The translations under genes were made by a program, and so were the position numbers. DNA of 64,000 bases from Mesorhizobium ciceri biovar biserrulae WSM1271. Lineage in GTDB: Bacteria; Pseudomonadota; Alphaproteobacteria; Rhizobiales; Rhizobiaceae. Under the pieces are notes generated by a model. The model was not told the DNA's origin. It did no database searches and saw nothing but the letters and a program-made list of their open reading frames with translations. Below, piece after piece: positions 27,402-34,179 of the stretch (its first letter is position 1; the number at the start of each line of letters is the position of its first letter). The stretch spans positions 2,193,501 through 2,257,500 of the forward strand of contig NC_014923.1 of NCBI RefSeq assembly GCF_000185905.1. The letters are read 5' to 3'.

Positions 27402-28526
27402 CTACTGCGTCAGAACGTTGCTGATTTCGACCATGTTGGAGCGCACCCTGAGCACATAGAAGCCCATCGTCGTCAGATGCGTCGGCAACAGCCAGCCATC
27501 CTCGCGGCCATTGGCGATGATGAAAGGCTGGATCTTCAGCGCCGAAACGAACTGCGAGTCCATCGTGTCCCACAGGTTCTGCAGATGCTTTTCCTTGATG
27601 ACGTCCTCGAAGTCGGCCTGGGCGCCCTTCATCAGGCCGTAATAGCCATAGAGCTGGCCATAGGCGAACCAGTAGCGGTCGTCGGCGCGGAAGTCGAACC
27701 AGCCATTGTTGTGGTTCTCGGCGCGTTCCTTGAGGATCGCCGAGGTCGAGCCGATGTCGGACGAGATGCGGTCGATATACTGTTTCAGATTGTCGGCGCG
27801 GGCGTCGAATGTCGCCTGGCAGGTGGCAAGGCGAGCGTTGAAGGAACGCAGCATGCGCACGGCGTCGCGATAGTAGCTCGGCGTCGGTGTCTTGGGGCCG
27901 AACGGGTTCAGGCCGAAATACCAGGTCTCCTCGTCGAACTGCAGGTTGCCGCGGGCATTCTGCAGATCGCTGTCGATCTGCGAGGTGGTGCGGACGCGGC
28001 CGAGATTGTCGGCGAGTTCGGTCGCCGTGCGCCGCACCGCCTGGTTGATGCCGCGCTGGAAGGAGGCCTTGTTGTCCATCCACGGCGTGTTGTCCCAGTC
28101 GATGCCGAACAGGCCGAGCTTGTAGAGGATCATCGACGAGATCCAGGCATTCTGGTTGACGTTGAAGTCGGTCAGGTCGGCGGCGATCTGGGCAATGCCG
28201 GAGTTGCCGCAGGTCTTGGCCGTGTCGGTGCCGGCGCCGGCGGAGACCTGTTCGCCAGCGGAGACATTGCGCTTCTCGAACGTGTAGGTGTCTGGATAGT
28301 TCGGGTTGAAATTGTTCCACCACTGGGTGGCGTAGAAGAAATTGGCGTAGAGGCCGATCAGCACCAGAAGAGCAAGGCCGACCGCCGCCTTGAGGATCCA
28401 GCCGCGTTGCGTGTACCAGCGTCCGGCCCACAGGAACGGCCACAGGATGACGCCGATCAAAAGCCCGATACCGCGGCCGATCCACTGGAAAATGCGGGTG
28501 AAGAAGTTCACGATCGGATCGAGCAC
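27402..28526 (-). CDS. DUF2333-family membrane-anchored protein, last gene of the AAA+ operon
   Basis: 374 aa, GTG start at 28526. Two hydrophobic stretches near the N-terminus (GIGLLIGVILWPFLWAGRW and LKAAVGLALLVLIGLYANF, residues about 19-65) anchor it; the rest is a soluble, probably periplasmic, helical domain (DFNVNQNAWISSMILYKLGL, GWLLPTHLTTMGFYVLRVRS). This matches DUF2333. It follows the gene ending at 28633 after 106 bp that contain a hairpin and a dispersed repeat. The function is unknown; its context is the AAA+/coiled-coil cluster. Confidence 0.8.
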   Translation of the reverse strand: MLDPIVNFFTRIFQWIGRGIGLLIGVILWPFLWAGRWYTQRGWILKAAVGLALLVLIGLYANFFYATQWWNNFNPNYPDTYTFEKRNVSAGEQVSAGAGTDTAKTCGNSGIAQIAADLTDFNVNQNAWISSMILYKLGLFGIDWDNTPWMDNKASFQRGINQAVRRTATELADNLGRVRTTSQIDSDLQNARGNLQFDEETWYFGLNPFGPKTPTPSYYRDAVRMLRSFNARLATCQATFDARADNLKQYIDRISSDIGSTSAILKERAENHNNGWFDFRADDRYWFAYGQLYGYYGLMKGAQADFEDVIKEKHLQNLWDTMDSQFVSALKIQPFIIANGREDGWLLPTHLTTMGFYVLRVRSNMVEISNVLTQ

Positions 28527-28547
28527 GGCTGTGTCACCCCCTCAAAG

Positions 28548-28590
28548 CATGATGCCAAAAAGTTGCAGACTTTTTGGATAACATTATGCG
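28548..28590. repeat. Rhizobial dispersed palindromic repeat
   Basis: The segment contains AAAAAGT-TGCAG-ACTTTTT (28556-28574) inside ATGATGCC...GGATAACATTATGCG. This form, with TTGCAGACTTTT in the middle and near-palindromic ends, recurs in intergenic regions of Mesorhizobium and Brucella as I remember them. It sits in the gap before the DUF2333 gene. Confidence 0.55.
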
Positions 28591-28605
28591 CCAAAACAAG
28601 AAGTC

Positions 28606-28634
28606 AGAACGAAATAAACGGTTCATTTCGTTCT
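28606..28634 (-). terminator. Hairpin at the end of the fourth operon gene
   Basis: AGAACGAAAT (28606-28615) pairs perfectly with ATTTCGTTCT (28625-28634) over 10 bp. The stem covers the stop codon at 28633-28635. On the minus strand a short T-rich stretch (GACTTCTTGTTTTGG) follows, so partial termination before the DUF2333 gene is possible. Confidence 0.45.
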
Positions 28635-29937
28635 AGTCAGTCAGGCCGTAGAGGCGCGTGCGAAACGCCACCTTGTCCTTCAAATATGTGGTTTTGAGAA
28701 CGTCCACAACATGCGATCGCCAGGCGTCGCTGAAGCCGCCATAGTCCTTGTAGAAGCCGTCCTTGTTGAAGATGTAGCGCGAGACGAAGTCCGACGGCAC
28801 GAAATCCGAGATCAGCCGGTTGGTCAGCCAGGCGTCAGGATGGTCAGGCTTGGCGCGGATCACCAGGAAGCGCTGCTGCGGGAAGACATCCTCGATCTTC
28901 AGGTGGCCGAGCTGGGAGATCTCGCGCTTGGCGGCGTTGAGGAAAGGGAAATTGCCGTCCCTGGTGATCAGGTCGGCATGGCTCTGGATCCAGGTCTGCA
29001 GCCAGACCTTGTCGACATTGGTCAAGTTGCGGTTCGGCTCGGCATCGCGGATCAGCGCGCGCACCACCATCTCGGCGCGGTGCTCGAGATAGCCCGAGGC
29101 CTCGACCCAGGAGGCGCGCGGCAACTCGATGCGGCCGGTGGTGGCGAGGAACTTGAACACCTTGTCGGCGTCGTTAATGGAGAGATAGCTGACCTGCCAC
29201 GGCCGCGAACGGCGGAAGCCTGGCGCCGCAGGATCGCTGATCACCGTCGTCACATCCGGGTCGACGAAGACGTAAAGGCCACCGAAATGGCTGGTCCAGT
29301 AGGCGTTGTGGCGGAAGATCACCTGGTCGGGCACCAGCGCGTTCTCGCGGATGTCGCCGCAGATCTTGGCGAGCTCGACCATGCGGTTCAGCATGGCGCT
29401 GTCGCGCCAGGCGTCGGGCTCCTGCTTCAACCGGTCGACGAGCTTGCCGAGCTCGGCGGCCTTGCCCAGCACATCCTCAGCCGACAGCACCTTGAACTCG
29501 ACCTGGCTGATCGACAGCAGGTCCTCGATATCGTTGACCTTGGGAACGGAATCCTCGATCTCGCCGTAGATGACATCCTTGATCGTCAGCGCATCGATGG
29601 CGCGCTGGTTCTTGGACATGAACTCGAACATCAGCTGCGAGGTGTTGGAGAAGGCGGTGTGCACCACCGGCAGGTCGATCTGCGACGGCGTCAGGATGAT
29701 GAAACGGCGGTTGACCTCGTTGGGATCGAGATAGTCGTAGTCGTCGCATTCCTCGGCCACTTCGGGCGAAAAGCCGGTGCGATCGATCTGGAAGGTCTTC
29801 AGCTTGGTCGGCTTCAAGCCGAATGCGGCGAGCGCCTTGTTGTAGCGCTGGATCAGATGCGGCTCGTCGACCGTCAGCAGCCGGCCATAGATCAGCTCAT
29901 TGTCGCGCAGGAGATCGGGTTTCTTGGCGGGGCTCAT
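28633..29937 (-). CDS. Conserved rhizobial protein (DUF6638-like), unknown function
   Basis: 434 aa from ATG 29937, which is preceded by GAGAAGG; a GTG five codons upstream is possible. It is soluble, without signal or membrane segments. Notable stretches are NELIYGRLLTVDEPHLIQRY at the N-terminus, a long mixed central region with EVEFKVLSAEDVLGKAAELG-like helices, and RLISDFVPSDFVSRYIFNKD near the C-terminus. I associate it with DUF6638 only by memory. It lies between the AAA+ ATPase gene (43 bp) and the DUF2333 gene on the same strand, in a tightly packed operon. Confidence 0.75.
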   Translation of the reverse strand: MSPAKKPDLLRDNELIYGRLLTVDEPHLIQRYNKALAAFGLKPTKLKTFQIDRTGFSPEVAEECDDYDYLDPNEVNRRFIILTPSQIDLPVVHTAFSNTSQLMFEFMSKNQRAIDALTIKDVIYGEIEDSVPKVNDIEDLLSISQVEFKVLSAEDVLGKAAELGKLVDRLKQEPDAWRDSAMLNRMVELAKICGDIRENALVPDQVIFRHNAYWTSHFGGLYVFVDPDVTTVISDPAAPGFRRSRPWQVSYLSINDADKVFKFLATTGRIELPRASWVEASGYLEHRAEMVVRALIRDAEPNRNLTNVDKVWLQTWIQSHADLITRDGNFPFLNAAKREISQLGHLKIEDVFPQQRFLVIRAKPDHPDAWLTNRLISDFVPSDFVSRYIFNKDGFYKDYGGFSDAWRSHVVDVLKTTYLKDKVAFRTRLYGLTD

Positions 29938-29979
29938 CTTGCCTTCTCCCACAAGGGGTGAAGGGAAGGCCGGCGCAGC

Positions 29980-31890
29980 TCACGCATTCCATAGCCCCTT
30001 CTTCTTCATCTCCTCCATCTCGCGCGCAGCCCGTTCGCGCAGGCGGGCGTCGCGCAGCAGTTTTTCCACGGCGGAGTCGTCGGACTTGTCGGAATAGCGG
30101 AACTCCGAGTCGGCGTAGCGGTTGATCTCCTGCATGACCATGTCCATCGAGAACGGCCCGCGCAGTTCCTCGATCATCGCTTTCTTCTCGTCGTAGCCCT
30201 TGTGCATGAAGACTTCCGGCTTCTCGAACCAATCGTCGGGAAGCTCGATGTCCATGGCGCGCATCTTGATAGCGTCGGTGACATTCTTGATGGCGCGACC
30301 GGTGAAGCGGGGCTCGGCATCCTTGATCAGGTGCAGATAGGTGCCGATATCGGCCATCGATTTCGGCGCGCCGTTCTCCTTCATGTAGCGCTCGTAGACC
30401 TTCATCAGCCCATCTTCCTGCGGCTTCTCGTGCTCCTCATAGGCTTCGGTCACGGCGCGCTGGATTTCCTGCGCGGCGTAGAGGTCGTGTTCGCCGAGCG
30501 GGATCTTGTGGTTTTTCCCCGCCAGCAGGACAAAAATATCGATGTAGTCGTCGCGGCTCTGCGGCCCGTCGACCAGCCAGCGGGCGCCGGCGCGCTGGCG
30601 CAGCGCGTCGTCGACATTTTCGGGGTAGTTGGAGAACATGCCGAATGAGCAGTTGCCGCGCACCACGGTGGCGGCGCCGGCGAAGGCGTCCATCAAGACG
30701 CCTGTTATTTCCTGCTGGCCGGCCGAGGCGCGGTCGTCGGAGCGGCGCGCCGCCACCTGGTCGATGTCGTCGATGGTGCCGAAGCCGATGACGCGCGGGT
30801 TCAAGACATTGTTGATGAACTGGCGGCAGTTCTGGCCCGACTTGCCCTGGTAGGACGAGATCTGGTCGACGCCGAAATTCTCGTAGGCGAAGGGATAGCC
30901 GGCGACCTGGCAATAGCCGTTGACGAGGCCGGCGATCATCTGGATCAGCGTCGTCTTGCCGGTGCCGGGGGCGCCGTCGCCGATGAAGGTGAACAGGAAG
31001 CCGCCGAGCTCGACGAACGGATTGAGTTCGCGCTCGAAATCATAGGCCATCAGCATCTTGGCGAGCTTGACCGACTGGTATTTGGCGATGTGGTTGCCGA
31101 CGACCTCTTCCGGCTTCTTGAAGGTCATCACCAGCGGTTTTGAGCGCTTGCCCGGCGTGACGTCAAAACCATCGAGAGTGAAATCGTCGGCATCGATGCG
31201 GATATGGGCGTTCTCGAACGGGCCGATGCCGTCGAAGCGGCCCTTGCGGGCCAGAAGCCCGTCGATGGCGACGCGGGCGAAGGCGCGTGCCCTTGTCATC
31301 AAATCGGCATCATCGGACGATCCCGAGATCGCCTTGTCGAGGCCAGCGAGGATCGACTTCACCGCATCCTGCGGCGTGTCGAACAGGAAGTCCGGCTCGG
31401 GGATGTCGTTGGGTGCCTCGCCGTCGCTGTCGATCAGCTGGAACAGGTAGGAGGCGAGGCTGAAGGCGGAGATGTAAGCCGAGGCCGACAGAAGCTTCTT
31501 GAAGGTGGCCGCTTCGTCGCCTTCGAGCGGCGCGCGGGTATTCCTGGCCTGCAGGCTTTCGAGGTCGGAGCCTTCGGCAAAGACGTCCGATATGGCCAGC
31601 GCGATCGCCGTGCCGCGCCGGGCGCGAAACAGGAGCGTGTGCTGCGGGATGGTCAGCAGCTGGTCGTCGGGATGAACGGCGCCGACGGTCTTGGCCAGCT
31701 CGACCTCGCGCGTGCGACGCACCGAGCCGACCGAGACGGTCGAGACGAAGCGGCGGTTGGTGCCGGCAAGCGCGGTGCCGGACTCCCGTGACGGGTCCTC
31801 CAGCACGACGATGCGGGTGATGAAGCTCTGCGCGGTGGCGCGGTGCTTCTCAATGGCGGCTTCCGGAATGGTGGTCAGGCCGGTATCCAT
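29980..31890 (-). CDS. AAA+ ATPase of the five-gene operon
   Basis: 636 aa. Walker A is GAPGTGKTT (about 306-314). The Walker B strand reads IGFGTIDDIDQVAARR (about 368-383), with acids D374/D375 and D377 in place of the usual DE pair. Sensor-1 is Asn421 in FGMFSNYPENV, and arginine-finger candidates are Arg431 and Arg433 in ALRQRAGARW. The N-terminal 290 residues form an unrecognised domain and the C-terminal 200 residues a helical lid with a long charged tail (ARLREREAARE-like). It has no membrane segments. Its neighbours are a coiled-coil TelA-like protein, two proteins of unknown function and a membrane-anchored DUF2333 protein, so it probably powers remodelling of a complex at the membrane; this is inference. 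Confidence 0.85.
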   Translation of the reverse strand: MDTGLTTIPEAAIEKHRATAQSFITRIVVLEDPSRESGTALAGTNRRFVSTVSVGSVRRTREVELAKTVGAVHPDDQLLTIPQHTLLFRARRGTAIALAISDVFAEGSDLESLQARNTRAPLEGDEAATFKKLLSASAYISAFSLASYLFQLIDSDGEAPNDIPEPDFLFDTPQDAVKSILAGLDKAISGSSDDADLMTRARAFARVAIDGLLARKGRFDGIGPFENAHIRIDADDFTLDGFDVTPGKRSKPLVMTFKKPEEVVGNHIAKYQSVKLAKMLMAYDFERELNPFVELGGFLFTFIGDGAPGTGKTTLIQMIAGLVNGYCQVAGYPFAYENFGVDQISSYQGKSGQNCRQFINNVLNPRVIGFGTIDDIDQVAARRSDDRASAGQQEITGVLMDAFAGAATVVRGNCSFGMFSNYPENVDDALRQRAGARWLVDGPQSRDDYIDIFVLLAGKNHKIPLGEHDLYAAQEIQRAVTEAYEEHEKPQEDGLMKVYERYMKENGAPKSMADIGTYLHLIKDAEPRFTGRAIKNVTDAIKMRAMDIELPDDWFEKPEVFMHKGYDEKKAMIEELRGPFSMDMVMQEINRYADSEFRYSDKSDDSAVEKLLRDARLRERAAREMEEMKKKGLWNA

Positions 31891-31914
31891 GAAGGGTGCT
31901 CCGTGGTGTGACGG

Positions 31915-33060
31915 TCAGACGTCTGAGATGACCTGTCCGTTGGACAGGATATGAACCTTGTAGCCGGCAAAAATCTTCTGTGCTTCGCCGGCGGCGTAGA
32001 GTGCCTGATAGGCCTCGTGCGGAATCAGCGCATGGTTTTCATAGCTCGACACGCCCTGACGCGCGGCTTCCAGATCATCAGTGTTGATGAAGAATTCCTG
32101 CGTTGTCTTCTCACTCGAAAACAGGCCCTTGCGGCCGGGTTTCTCGCTCTTGGAATAGACCTCCTGGATCGTCCAGGTCAAAAGCCAGGCATTTTCCGGC
32201 TTGCGCACCTTGGCCAGAACCTCGGTCACCGTCGAATTGTTGTCGGTAATCCCCACCGAATAGAACGGGCCGAGCACGACGCGGCGCAGCTGCTTGGGGT
32301 GCAGCGGTTCGAAATCCTTGTCGAGGTTGACCGCGATGGTCGCCGGCGACAGCGTATAGGCGGAGTTCTTCTCGGTGAAATCGTCGAAACGATGGGCAAG
32401 CTCGGGATTGAGCAGGCCGTCGACCGGCAGCGGAATGTCGACCGTCTCGTTGAGTTTGCCGTTTCTGTCGACAAGCTGGCGGATCATCGCGTCGGAAGAA
32501 TCCTCCACCGTCACCATGTAGACCAGAGGCAGGTTGGCGCTGCCGTCGAACGTCGCCCAATGGACGAGATAATAGGGCCGTCCCGTCTTCGGATTGACCG
32601 AGACTTTGGCGGTTTGCGCCAGCGTGAAGGGACCGAACGTGTTCTCGCTTTTCACGTCCTCGAGATAGAGCCGCTCGGCCATCGATTTCTGCAGCGCCTC
32701 GGGGAATTCCTTGTGGCGCAGGATGAAGTCGGCCATTTCCTCGCGCAATTCGCCGGCGAGCGGGATGTTGGCAAGCCGCGCGTCGGCCTGGCGGCGGTCG
32801 TTTTCCAGTTCGAGCAGGTTCTGGAACACCGGGAATCCGCTTTCGGCCCGCGAAATGCGGAACGTGTCCATGAAGCCCAGCCGGTTGCGCCAGCAGGAAA
32901 ACGACTTGTCGAGCCGGGCGATGTATTCGGCGACGATCTTGGCGACGATGCCATGCCGGTAAAGCGGCGAGCGATCGTCGCGCATGAACACTTCAAGGCC
33001 GCTCAGCGCGGCCGTGATGGCGGAGAAATATCGTGCCGCCGCTTCGTTTTCGGGGGTCAT
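31915..33060 (-). CDS. Conserved hypothetical protein of the AAA+ operon
   Basis: 381 aa, soluble, no signal peptide or transmembrane segment. The N-terminal 150 residues are helical (NEAAARYFSAITAALSGLEV, ARLDKSFSCWRNRLGFMDTF); the second half is beta-rich (RPYYLVHWATFDGSANLPLV, LRRVVLGPFYSVGITDNNST, AWLLTWTIQEVYSKSEKPGR). No domain was recognised. It lies 24 bp before the AAA+ gene and 30 bp after the coiled-coil gene, so all three are co-transcribed and probably form one machine. Confidence 0.75.
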   Translation of the reverse strand: MTPENEAAARYFSAITAALSGLEVFMRDDRSPLYRHGIVAKIVAEYIARLDKSFSCWRNRLGFMDTFRISRAESGFPVFQNLLELENDRRQADARLANIPLAGELREEMADFILRHKEFPEALQKSMAERLYLEDVKSENTFGPFTLAQTAKVSVNPKTGRPYYLVHWATFDGSANLPLVYMVTVEDSSDAMIRQLVDRNGKLNETVDIPLPVDGLLNPELAHRFDDFTEKNSAYTLSPATIAVNLDKDFEPLHPKQLRRVVLGPFYSVGITDNNSTVTEVLAKVRKPENAWLLTWTIQEVYSKSEKPGRKGLFSSEKTTQEFFINTDDLEAARQGVSSYENHALIPHEAYQALYAAGEAQKIFAGYKVHILSNGQVISDV

Positions 33061-33090
33061 GCCTGTGCGCTCGCGGGCAGTCCTGTCACC

Positions 33091-34179
33091 CTAAGACTGC
33101 ACGTAGTTTGCCGAATTGTGCTTCTTCAGCACCTCGTCGAAGCGGCGGGCAAAGGCATCGTCGGCCAGCTTCTTGCGGCGCTGGATGTCGGCGGTGGCGA
33201 CCATGTTCTTCTCGTGCATCTCGAGTAGGTCGCCGATGTGTTTTTGCGAAGCAGCACCGATGCCGGCCATGGTTTCCTCGGCGGTGTTGTCGACCTGGCT
33301 GCCCAGCGTGTTGATCTTGTGGGCGACGTCCTGCTGGGCGGCGGTCTTCAGCGAATCTTCCAGCGCCTTGTAGAGCACGATGCGCTGCTCGGTATCGATG
33401 GTCAGCTTGTTGATCAGCGTCGATTGCGCGGCGATCTGGTTGTTGAGCGAATCGACGAAGGTCTGGAACATCGAGGTGTAGCGCTCGAGCGTCTGGCTCT
33501 CGGCCAGCAGCTCCTGCTCCTTGGCCTGCTTTTCGTTGTATTCCGTCGCCAGCTTGGAGCGTTCGCCTTCGAGCTGCGTGCGGTCCTTCTGGCTGGTCGA
33601 AGCGGCGATCTTGTTTTCGATGTCGAGCAGTATCGGGTTGAGCTCCTCGATGCGCTTCTGCACGGCTTCGAGGTTGGTCATGGTGGTCTTGCGGCGCTCG
33701 ATCACCTGCGACAGGCTGGTTTCCGAGGTCTTGTAGCGCTGGTCGAGGACCTCTTTCTGCGCCTTCAATATGCCGACGATGGTGTCGGATTTGACCAGCA
33801 ATTCCTGCAGATTGCCCGCCAGCGACATGTTGCGGACGCGGTCGGTGCGCATGCGCTGCTTGCTCTGGCTGGAGAAGATACCGATGAATTTTTCCCAGCC
33901 GGTGTAGTTCTTCATGCTCTCGAACTCGGAGCCGAAGACGTTGGTGGCGTCCTCCAGGCCGATGATCAGGTCGGCAATGTTGCCTTCCATCACCTTTTGC
34001 TGCTTCAGCACATCCTCGATGCGGGCGTTCTCGAGGTCGAAATTGGCGTCGCCGATCTTCTTGTCCGATGTGGCGAGCGTATCAAGCATGGTGCCGGACT
34101 GCTCGATCTTGGAGCGCATGTCCTGCACGACCTGCTTGGTCTTGGCAATTTCGGCGTCGAAATTCTGCAATGTCGCCAT
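33091..34179 (-). CDS. Coiled-coil protein, distantly TelA-like, first gene of the AAA+ operon
   Basis: 362 aa from ATG 34179, chosen for the GGGAGG site 5 nt upstream; ATGs 21 and 63 nt earlier lack one. The chain is almost all helix with heptad patterns: KQVVQDMRSKIEQSGTMLDT, RKTTMTNLEAVQKRIEELNP, ERSKLATEYNEKQAKEQELL. A basic, turn-containing segment GWEKFIGIFSSQSKQRMRT near residue 95 and the C-terminal AAQSTLINKLTIDTEQRIVL recall the toxic-anion-resistance family TelA, but only weakly. No membrane segment is present. As the first gene it may encode the scaffold on which the ATPase and the others assemble. Confidence 0.7.
   Translation of the reverse strand: MATLQNFDAEIAKTKQVVQDMRSKIEQSGTMLDTLATSDKKIGDANFDLENARIEDVLKQQKVMEGNIADLIIGLEDATNVFGSEFESMKNYTGWEKFIGIFSSQSKQRMRTDRVRNMSLAGNLQELLVKSDTIVGILKAQKEVLDQRYKTSETSLSQVIERRKTTMTNLEAVQKRIEELNPILLDIENKIAASTSQKDRTQLEGERSKLATEYNEKQAKEQELLAESQTLERYTSMFQTFVDSLNNQIAAQSTLINKLTIDTEQRIVLYKALEDSLKTAAQQDVAHKINTLGSQVDNTAEETMAGIGAASQKHIGDLLEMHEKNMVATADIQRRKKLADDAFARRFDEVLKKHNSANYVQS

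Follow-up and report, generated by a model that had tools for sequence, protein, structure and literature searches.

ESCRT-III/Vps4 systems combine a coiled-coil polymer with an AAA ATPase, and PspA and Vipp1 are bacterial forms of ESCRT-III; in the available part of a study in Cell (2021, PMC8281802), both the standing of PspF as a Vps4-like partner of PspA and the ATPase equivalent for Vipp1 are unsettled. The membrane protein family DUF2333 is treated in a paper on the type VI secretion system, the accessible part of which places a Pseudomonas fluorescens DUF2333 gene (by the paper's own naming of the family) near amidase, Nudix, sui1 and hcp3 genes and names no AAA or DUF6638 gene there (PMC5256989). 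Here we describe a locus in a 64,000-nucleotide stretch (the window; NC_014923.1, positions 2,193,501 to 2,257,500) of the 6.69 Mb genome of Mesorhizobium ciceri biovar biserrulae WSM1271, in which genes A to E, in order of transcription, encode a coiled-coil-like protein, a protein of no assigned family, an AAA ATPase, a DUF6638 protein and a membrane protein of the same family as that of P. fluorescens. An earlier note on this DNA regarded the locus as an undescribed five-gene operon; the AAA module with its coil and membrane protein is conserved, and no description of it, nor any mention of DUF6638, was found in the PubMed Central (PMC) literature searched, in which DUF1523 yields four papers and DUF2333 the one above, but the conserved unit is a four-gene core, A-B-C-D, with an exchangeable fifth gene. 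The module has the look of a hitherto undescribed machine that acts at the cell membrane.

The distribution of C was determined in samples drawn from larger genome sets, each count including the window's own genome and varying with the genomes that those sets contain. It is present in 41 of 61 relatives, with all 37 of the same-genus genomes searched containing it (one as a 39-aa fragment), and in 38/297 genomes of the order, 7/385 of the class and 26/398 of the phylum, one of the latter from another class; many Mesorhizobium records contain a C with 93–99% identity to the window ATPase. DUF6638 (gene D) is present in 40 of the 297 order genomes, corresponding to the 38 with C together with G857 and G894, in which the D genes lie at contig ends such that C would fall off the contig. 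Among the 96 loci in which C and D are present and the sequence extends 1.5 kb or more beyond D, the order and strand of A-B-C-D are retained in 95, indicating that the arrangement is not due to chance; in the exception (L098) the available sequence begins just before C. The genome-contig search contributed the best 80 of at least 555 matches, and although the 96 ATPases are all different, most are from close Rhizobiaceae relatives and the number of independent lineages is thus far fewer than 96. Distances computed for pairs of loci are correlated from one core gene to another within A-B-C-D (Spearman 0.63–0.84; 231 or 253 pairs). Co-occurrence outside close relatives had been proposed as a test of the system, and A–D are found together in other families, in another class and on Vibrio megaplasmids.

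In several relatives C occupies a fixed chromosomal place, and ten records of a plasmid collection also contain the ATPase. C is found in four Vibrio plasmid records (0.88–0.94 Mb), with A-B-C-D present in both of those opened, and A-B-C-D is also present on a Rhizobium plasmid. The plasmids of Vibrio vulnificus and V. parahaemolyticus (L170 and L171; 925 and 939 kb; South Korea and Colombia) have mfd following A-B-C-D and share a nearly identical layout that includes secA, a LysM protein gene and many unknown genes. The C-D junction tolerates insertions: a Sinorhizobium locus (L172) has an endonuclease-domain gene and ISRm16 there, L121 has a small gene that by eye is ribbon-helix-helix (RHH) antitoxin-like, L128 has a frame of 340 aa and L101 has 1.9 kb. 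Genes for anthranilate synthase and formate-tetrahydrofolate ligase, together with choVW, are present on the L172 record (CP090106.1; 3.7 Mb), which is labelled pSymB and may, at a guess, really be the chromosome.

The fifth gene behaves differently. Gene E was earlier identified as DUF2333, and its Pfam score of 80.5 bits (gathering cut-off 22) confirms this, with hydrophobic N-terminal segments at residues 16–34 and 43–61 followed by a large domain in which C106 and C236 are invariant in 12/12 proteins. The gene after D is DUF2333 in 82 of the 96 loci and DUF1523 in 11, with neither in three and both in none. DUF1523 was sought in 56 chosen genomes, 24 with C and no known operon DUF2333, and 32 lacking C; all 24 of the former have it on the strand of the C match and 1.4–2.7 kb downstream, and one of the 32 controls has it. 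DUF2333 is absent from 22 of these 24 genomes and is on another contig in two (G271 and G395), such that mutual exclusion holds for the operon but not for every genome. Both families have transmembrane (TM) segments, and a profile comparison between them (1.6%) gives no signal of common ancestry. Within the order, DUF2333 is present in 49/297 genomes, 29 with C and 20 without, two of the latter being the contig-end cases G857 and G894; in G050 C is present, the contig ends at D and there is no DUF2333 match. Twelve E loci were opened in genomes lacking a C match: two are the contig-end cases, in three E is accompanied by a diverged A, and in the remaining seven there is no A–D match nearby. 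Because E is both replaceable and separable, the five genes do not constitute one unit, contrary to the earlier five-gene description.

From 170 neighbour proteins of the operon (predicted with a crude gene caller), 131 remained after length and locus filters and 119 were used; 11 of these are DUF1523, and no other recurrent neighbour exceeds 4/119 (aldehyde dehydrogenase and ABC transporter parts). A small family of ~90–100 aa is encoded on the same strand in seven of the 11 DUF1523 loci, and three members (L127:6493–6789, L176:5403–5681 and L180:7765–8031) have two TM segments each; scans of two members gave no Pfam family above cut-off. In L193 and L194, DUF2333 without A–D lies beside a gene for a 900-aa protein (DUF4175-like by eye) and a lysA-like gene.

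Three genomes of the same family (G531, G665 and G677) provide a natural loss of B-C-D. Of the five genes, only E and a diverged A (22–30% identity by tblastn) remain at the locus, which is flanked by choVWX/thymidine kinase on one side and formate-tetrahydrofolate ligase on the other. With invariant positions of A defined on 22 A proteins, these genomes keep 43/72 invariant-position cells in residues 1–270 and 4/9 in residues 331–362, but 3/30 in residues 271–330, a segment that is partly deleted outright. The loss of this segment where B-C-D is missing suggests that A 271–330 may be an interface facing B, C or D.

The five minus-strand frames are reproduced with the positions and lengths earlier given (Table 1), and the intergenic gaps A/B, B/C, C/D and D/E are 30, 24, 42 and 106 bp, in agreement with the 24–43 bp claimed between the first four. 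A hydropathy scan finds no TM segments in A, B, C or D of the window. Pfam searches place C, D and E in families, whereas A and B have no Pfam family above cut-off, PspA_IM30 and TelA (PF05816) included for A; the best profile matches of A, B, D and E to solved structures have E values of 0.1 or worse, and an NCBIfam scan of the five proteins gives sub-cut-off matches only. Compared with seven related loci, ratios of nonsynonymous to synonymous substitution rates (dN/dS) are 0.11–0.22 for A, B and C, 0.18–0.28 for D and 0.30–0.47 for E.

Table 1. Genes of the locus, with coordinates in the window.
Gene	Position	Strand	Length	Features
A	33091-34179	minus	362 aa	coiled-coil-like; no TM segment (hydropathy scan)
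B	31915-33060	minus	381 aa	no Pfam family above cut-off; N-terminal helices and a domain at ~157-343
C	29980-31890	minus	636 aa	single-module AAA ATPase; Pfam AAA 5.9e-11
D	28633-29937	minus	434 aa	DUF6638 (PF20343), 9.7e-70
E	27402-28526	minus	374 aa	DUF2333 (PF10095) membrane protein, 1.4e-22

C matches Pfam AAA at 43.4 bits (cut-off 21.2). In an alignment of 23 proteins, the window's included, the Walker A motif GDGxPGTGKT is invariant except at x, and the unusual DDID sequence at Walker B that had been remarked on earlier is indeed a constant feature, with D374, D375 and D377 invariant in 23/23. C thus departs from the hhhhDE pattern at a single residue, DD replacing DE throughout. R431, R433 and R437 at the positions of the second region of homology (SRH), and G531-R532 of a late GR motif, are likewise invariant (23/23); we take the three arginines to be arginine fingers. 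Since these residues are invariant, C is probably an active ATPase. By sequence, the best matches of C with a solved structure are ATPases of the CDC48-like, FtsH/i-AAA, AFG2 and proteasome kinds, and the similarity covers the AAA core only. Like CDC48, FtsH, PAN and AFG2, C has Walker A, SRH-like arginines, late GR residues and a Pfam AAA match, but it differs from them in its Walker B DD, in a long N-terminal region that matches no Pfam family and in having the dedicated partners A, B and D. Its scores against the CDC48 and proteasome-activating NCBIfam models are ~13–20 bits, versus cut-offs of 500–803.

Predicted models of D (pLDDT 91.5) and B (pLDDT 91.1) were compared with known structures. 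D matches DUF6638 at 236 bits (gathering cut-off 27), and Foldseek finds no match to its model at E ≤ 0.001 in PDB or BFVD; a second structural comparison gives a best Z of 4.0, and this lack of solved relatives for the predicted model does not show that D has a new fold. The B model also has no Foldseek match at E ≤ 0.001, with a best Z of 5.7 (<8; 3.9 Å over 121 residues) in the second comparison. Most of its upper structural matches are enzymes of the T-fold kind (uricase, dihydroneopterin aldolase and GTP cyclohydrolase), and the modelled domain at ~157–343 thus has a weak resemblance to T-fold enzymes that is suggestive only.

We tentatively favour, as possible although short of probable, a membrane-tethered AAA complex. 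A, B, C and D would form one cytosolic machine in which an AAA ring of C, driven by ATP, remodels or takes apart an assembly built by the coil A, with B and D serving as dedicated adaptors. The machine would act at the inner membrane, where a membrane protein with a large, presumably non-cytosolic domain (DUF2333 here, DUF1523 in other lineages) would tether it or signal to it, and it would likely serve to maintain the inner membrane or the envelope during stress. This reading draws on the joint inheritance of the four genes, the swapping of the fifth between two TM families, the invariant ATPase signature residues and the loss of A 271–330 along with B-C-D. SMc02733 of Sinorhizobium may be a gene of this operon, a placement for which confirmation was sought in the literature and none found. 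The accessible part of one report describes a ChvI-bound fragment inside SMc02733 (PMC3687685).

Several observations weigh against such a complex. The fifth gene is unrecognised within ~1.5 kb of D on two Vibrio plasmids and one Rhizobium leguminosarum plasmid, and E is retained in the absence of B-C-D, and of A–D in 7/12 of the opened loci, indicating that E has a separate role. E distances also correlate with those of A–D (Spearman 0.87–0.93; 45 pairs), so the correlations among A–D may merely follow the species tree, and the absence of B-C-D from the three genomes may go back to one or two losses. Boxes for stress sigma factors are not enriched upstream of A: in 99 regions of 300 bp, with expected counts from shuffles in parentheses, there are 0 (0.2) strict and 3 (1.35) relaxed EcfG boxes, 1 (0.6) for RpoH, 0 (0.0) for RpoE and 3 (3.5) that are sigma-70-like.

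An alternative is that A and C constitute a bacterial ESCRT-III/Vps4-like pair, in which A is a membrane-binding filament of the PspA/ESCRT-III type and C its turnover ATPase. A resemblance to PspA-type systems was suggested by the earlier note and receives weak support that does not decide the matter: A aligns with the PspA profile over residues 121–277 (probability 56%, E 1.1e-4), and under a different match rule (22.9%) the score of 32.7 exceeds those of 60 block shuffles (≤23.3) and of comparisons with either profile reversed (≤20.2) and is the highest of 28 family pairs, the next being 24.9. However, comparison of A with the reversed profile of A reaches a score of 43.4 (67%), more than A with PspA, showing that coiled-coil composition can mislead, and PspA/Vipp1 appear among the PDB profile matches of A at E 0.9–3.9 amid other coils. 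As judged from its sequence, the PspA-likeness of A is only suggestive, and A further differs from PspA/Vipp1 in its length, the lack of a Pfam PspA match and the possession of its own AAA protein and two further partners. In one operon a PspA-like gene (L175:5405–6094, minus strand; NCBIfam PspA 2e-4, sub-cut-off) is close to the DUF1523 gene. Two further points favour the pair: Pfam gives no PspA match in the window genome, and the ATPase serving bacterial PspA/Vipp1 is left open in the study cited above (PMC8281802). The sequence matches of C include no close relative of Vps4; the listed matches are headed by CDC48, FtsH/i-AAA, AFG2 and proteasome ATPases, and fidgetin-like 1, which is placed near Vps4 and is the sole such relative among them, is at E 0.76. 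A C-terminal docking motif of the Vps4 (MIM-like) type was considered for the DxxFxxRF-like end of A and dropped: copies of A from loci lacking C still retain part of this end (4/9 cells), which thus is not evidence for such docking. To our knowledge, B, D and the membrane protein have no counterparts in ESCRT-III/Vps4. We consider the pair unlikely, and a fuller version for alphaproteobacteria lacking PspA, in which C would recycle a polymer of A formed at the inner membrane via B and D, with DUF2333 and DUF1523 as swappable membrane sensors that set its place and timing, distinctly unlikely.

It is unlikely that C is instead a chaperone or metal-insertion AAA protein, a type exemplified by MoxR/CbbQ and Rubisco activase, that activates one client enzyme, to which A, B and D would be the adaptors. 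C does have a single AAA module and B weakly resembles uricase and pterin enzymes, but no enzyme family is prominent beside the operon (DUF1523 at 11/119 being followed by nothing above 4/119), and A, B and D have no vWA domain or enzyme family above the Pfam cut-off. An anti-phage defence system could account for the patchy distribution in the order (38/297) and the ten plasmid-collection records, yet we regard it as very unlikely: PADLOC 2.0.0 gives C five matches, all weak and of a generic AAA kind (best 4.5e-4), and A one at E 0.34, with none for B, D or E, and C is in 37/37 same-genus genomes (one a short fragment) and sits at a constant chromosomal position in several of the relatives. 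A phage origin was also rejected, with no match in a phage collection (A and C) or, by pattern, in IMG/VR (C). The remaining proposal, a tellurite/toxic-anion resistance module of the TelA/Ter type, derives from the earlier description of A as TelA-like, and A and TelA (PF05816) are alike in length and coiled-coil character. There is no profile similarity, however, the hhalign probability being 1.5% and the score of 22.7 within the decoy range, and the genome has no TelA match; this proposal is largely refuted.

The locus thus represents a co-inherited four-protein ATPase module, its ATPase being present in the whole genus sample (37/37, one a short fragment) and in other Proteobacteria, without a described function in searchable papers. 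Through their exchange, DUF2333 and DUF1523, both orphan membrane families, become connected with a single machine, and the natural deletion of B-C-D singles out part of A as a candidate interface, making the mechanism directly testable.

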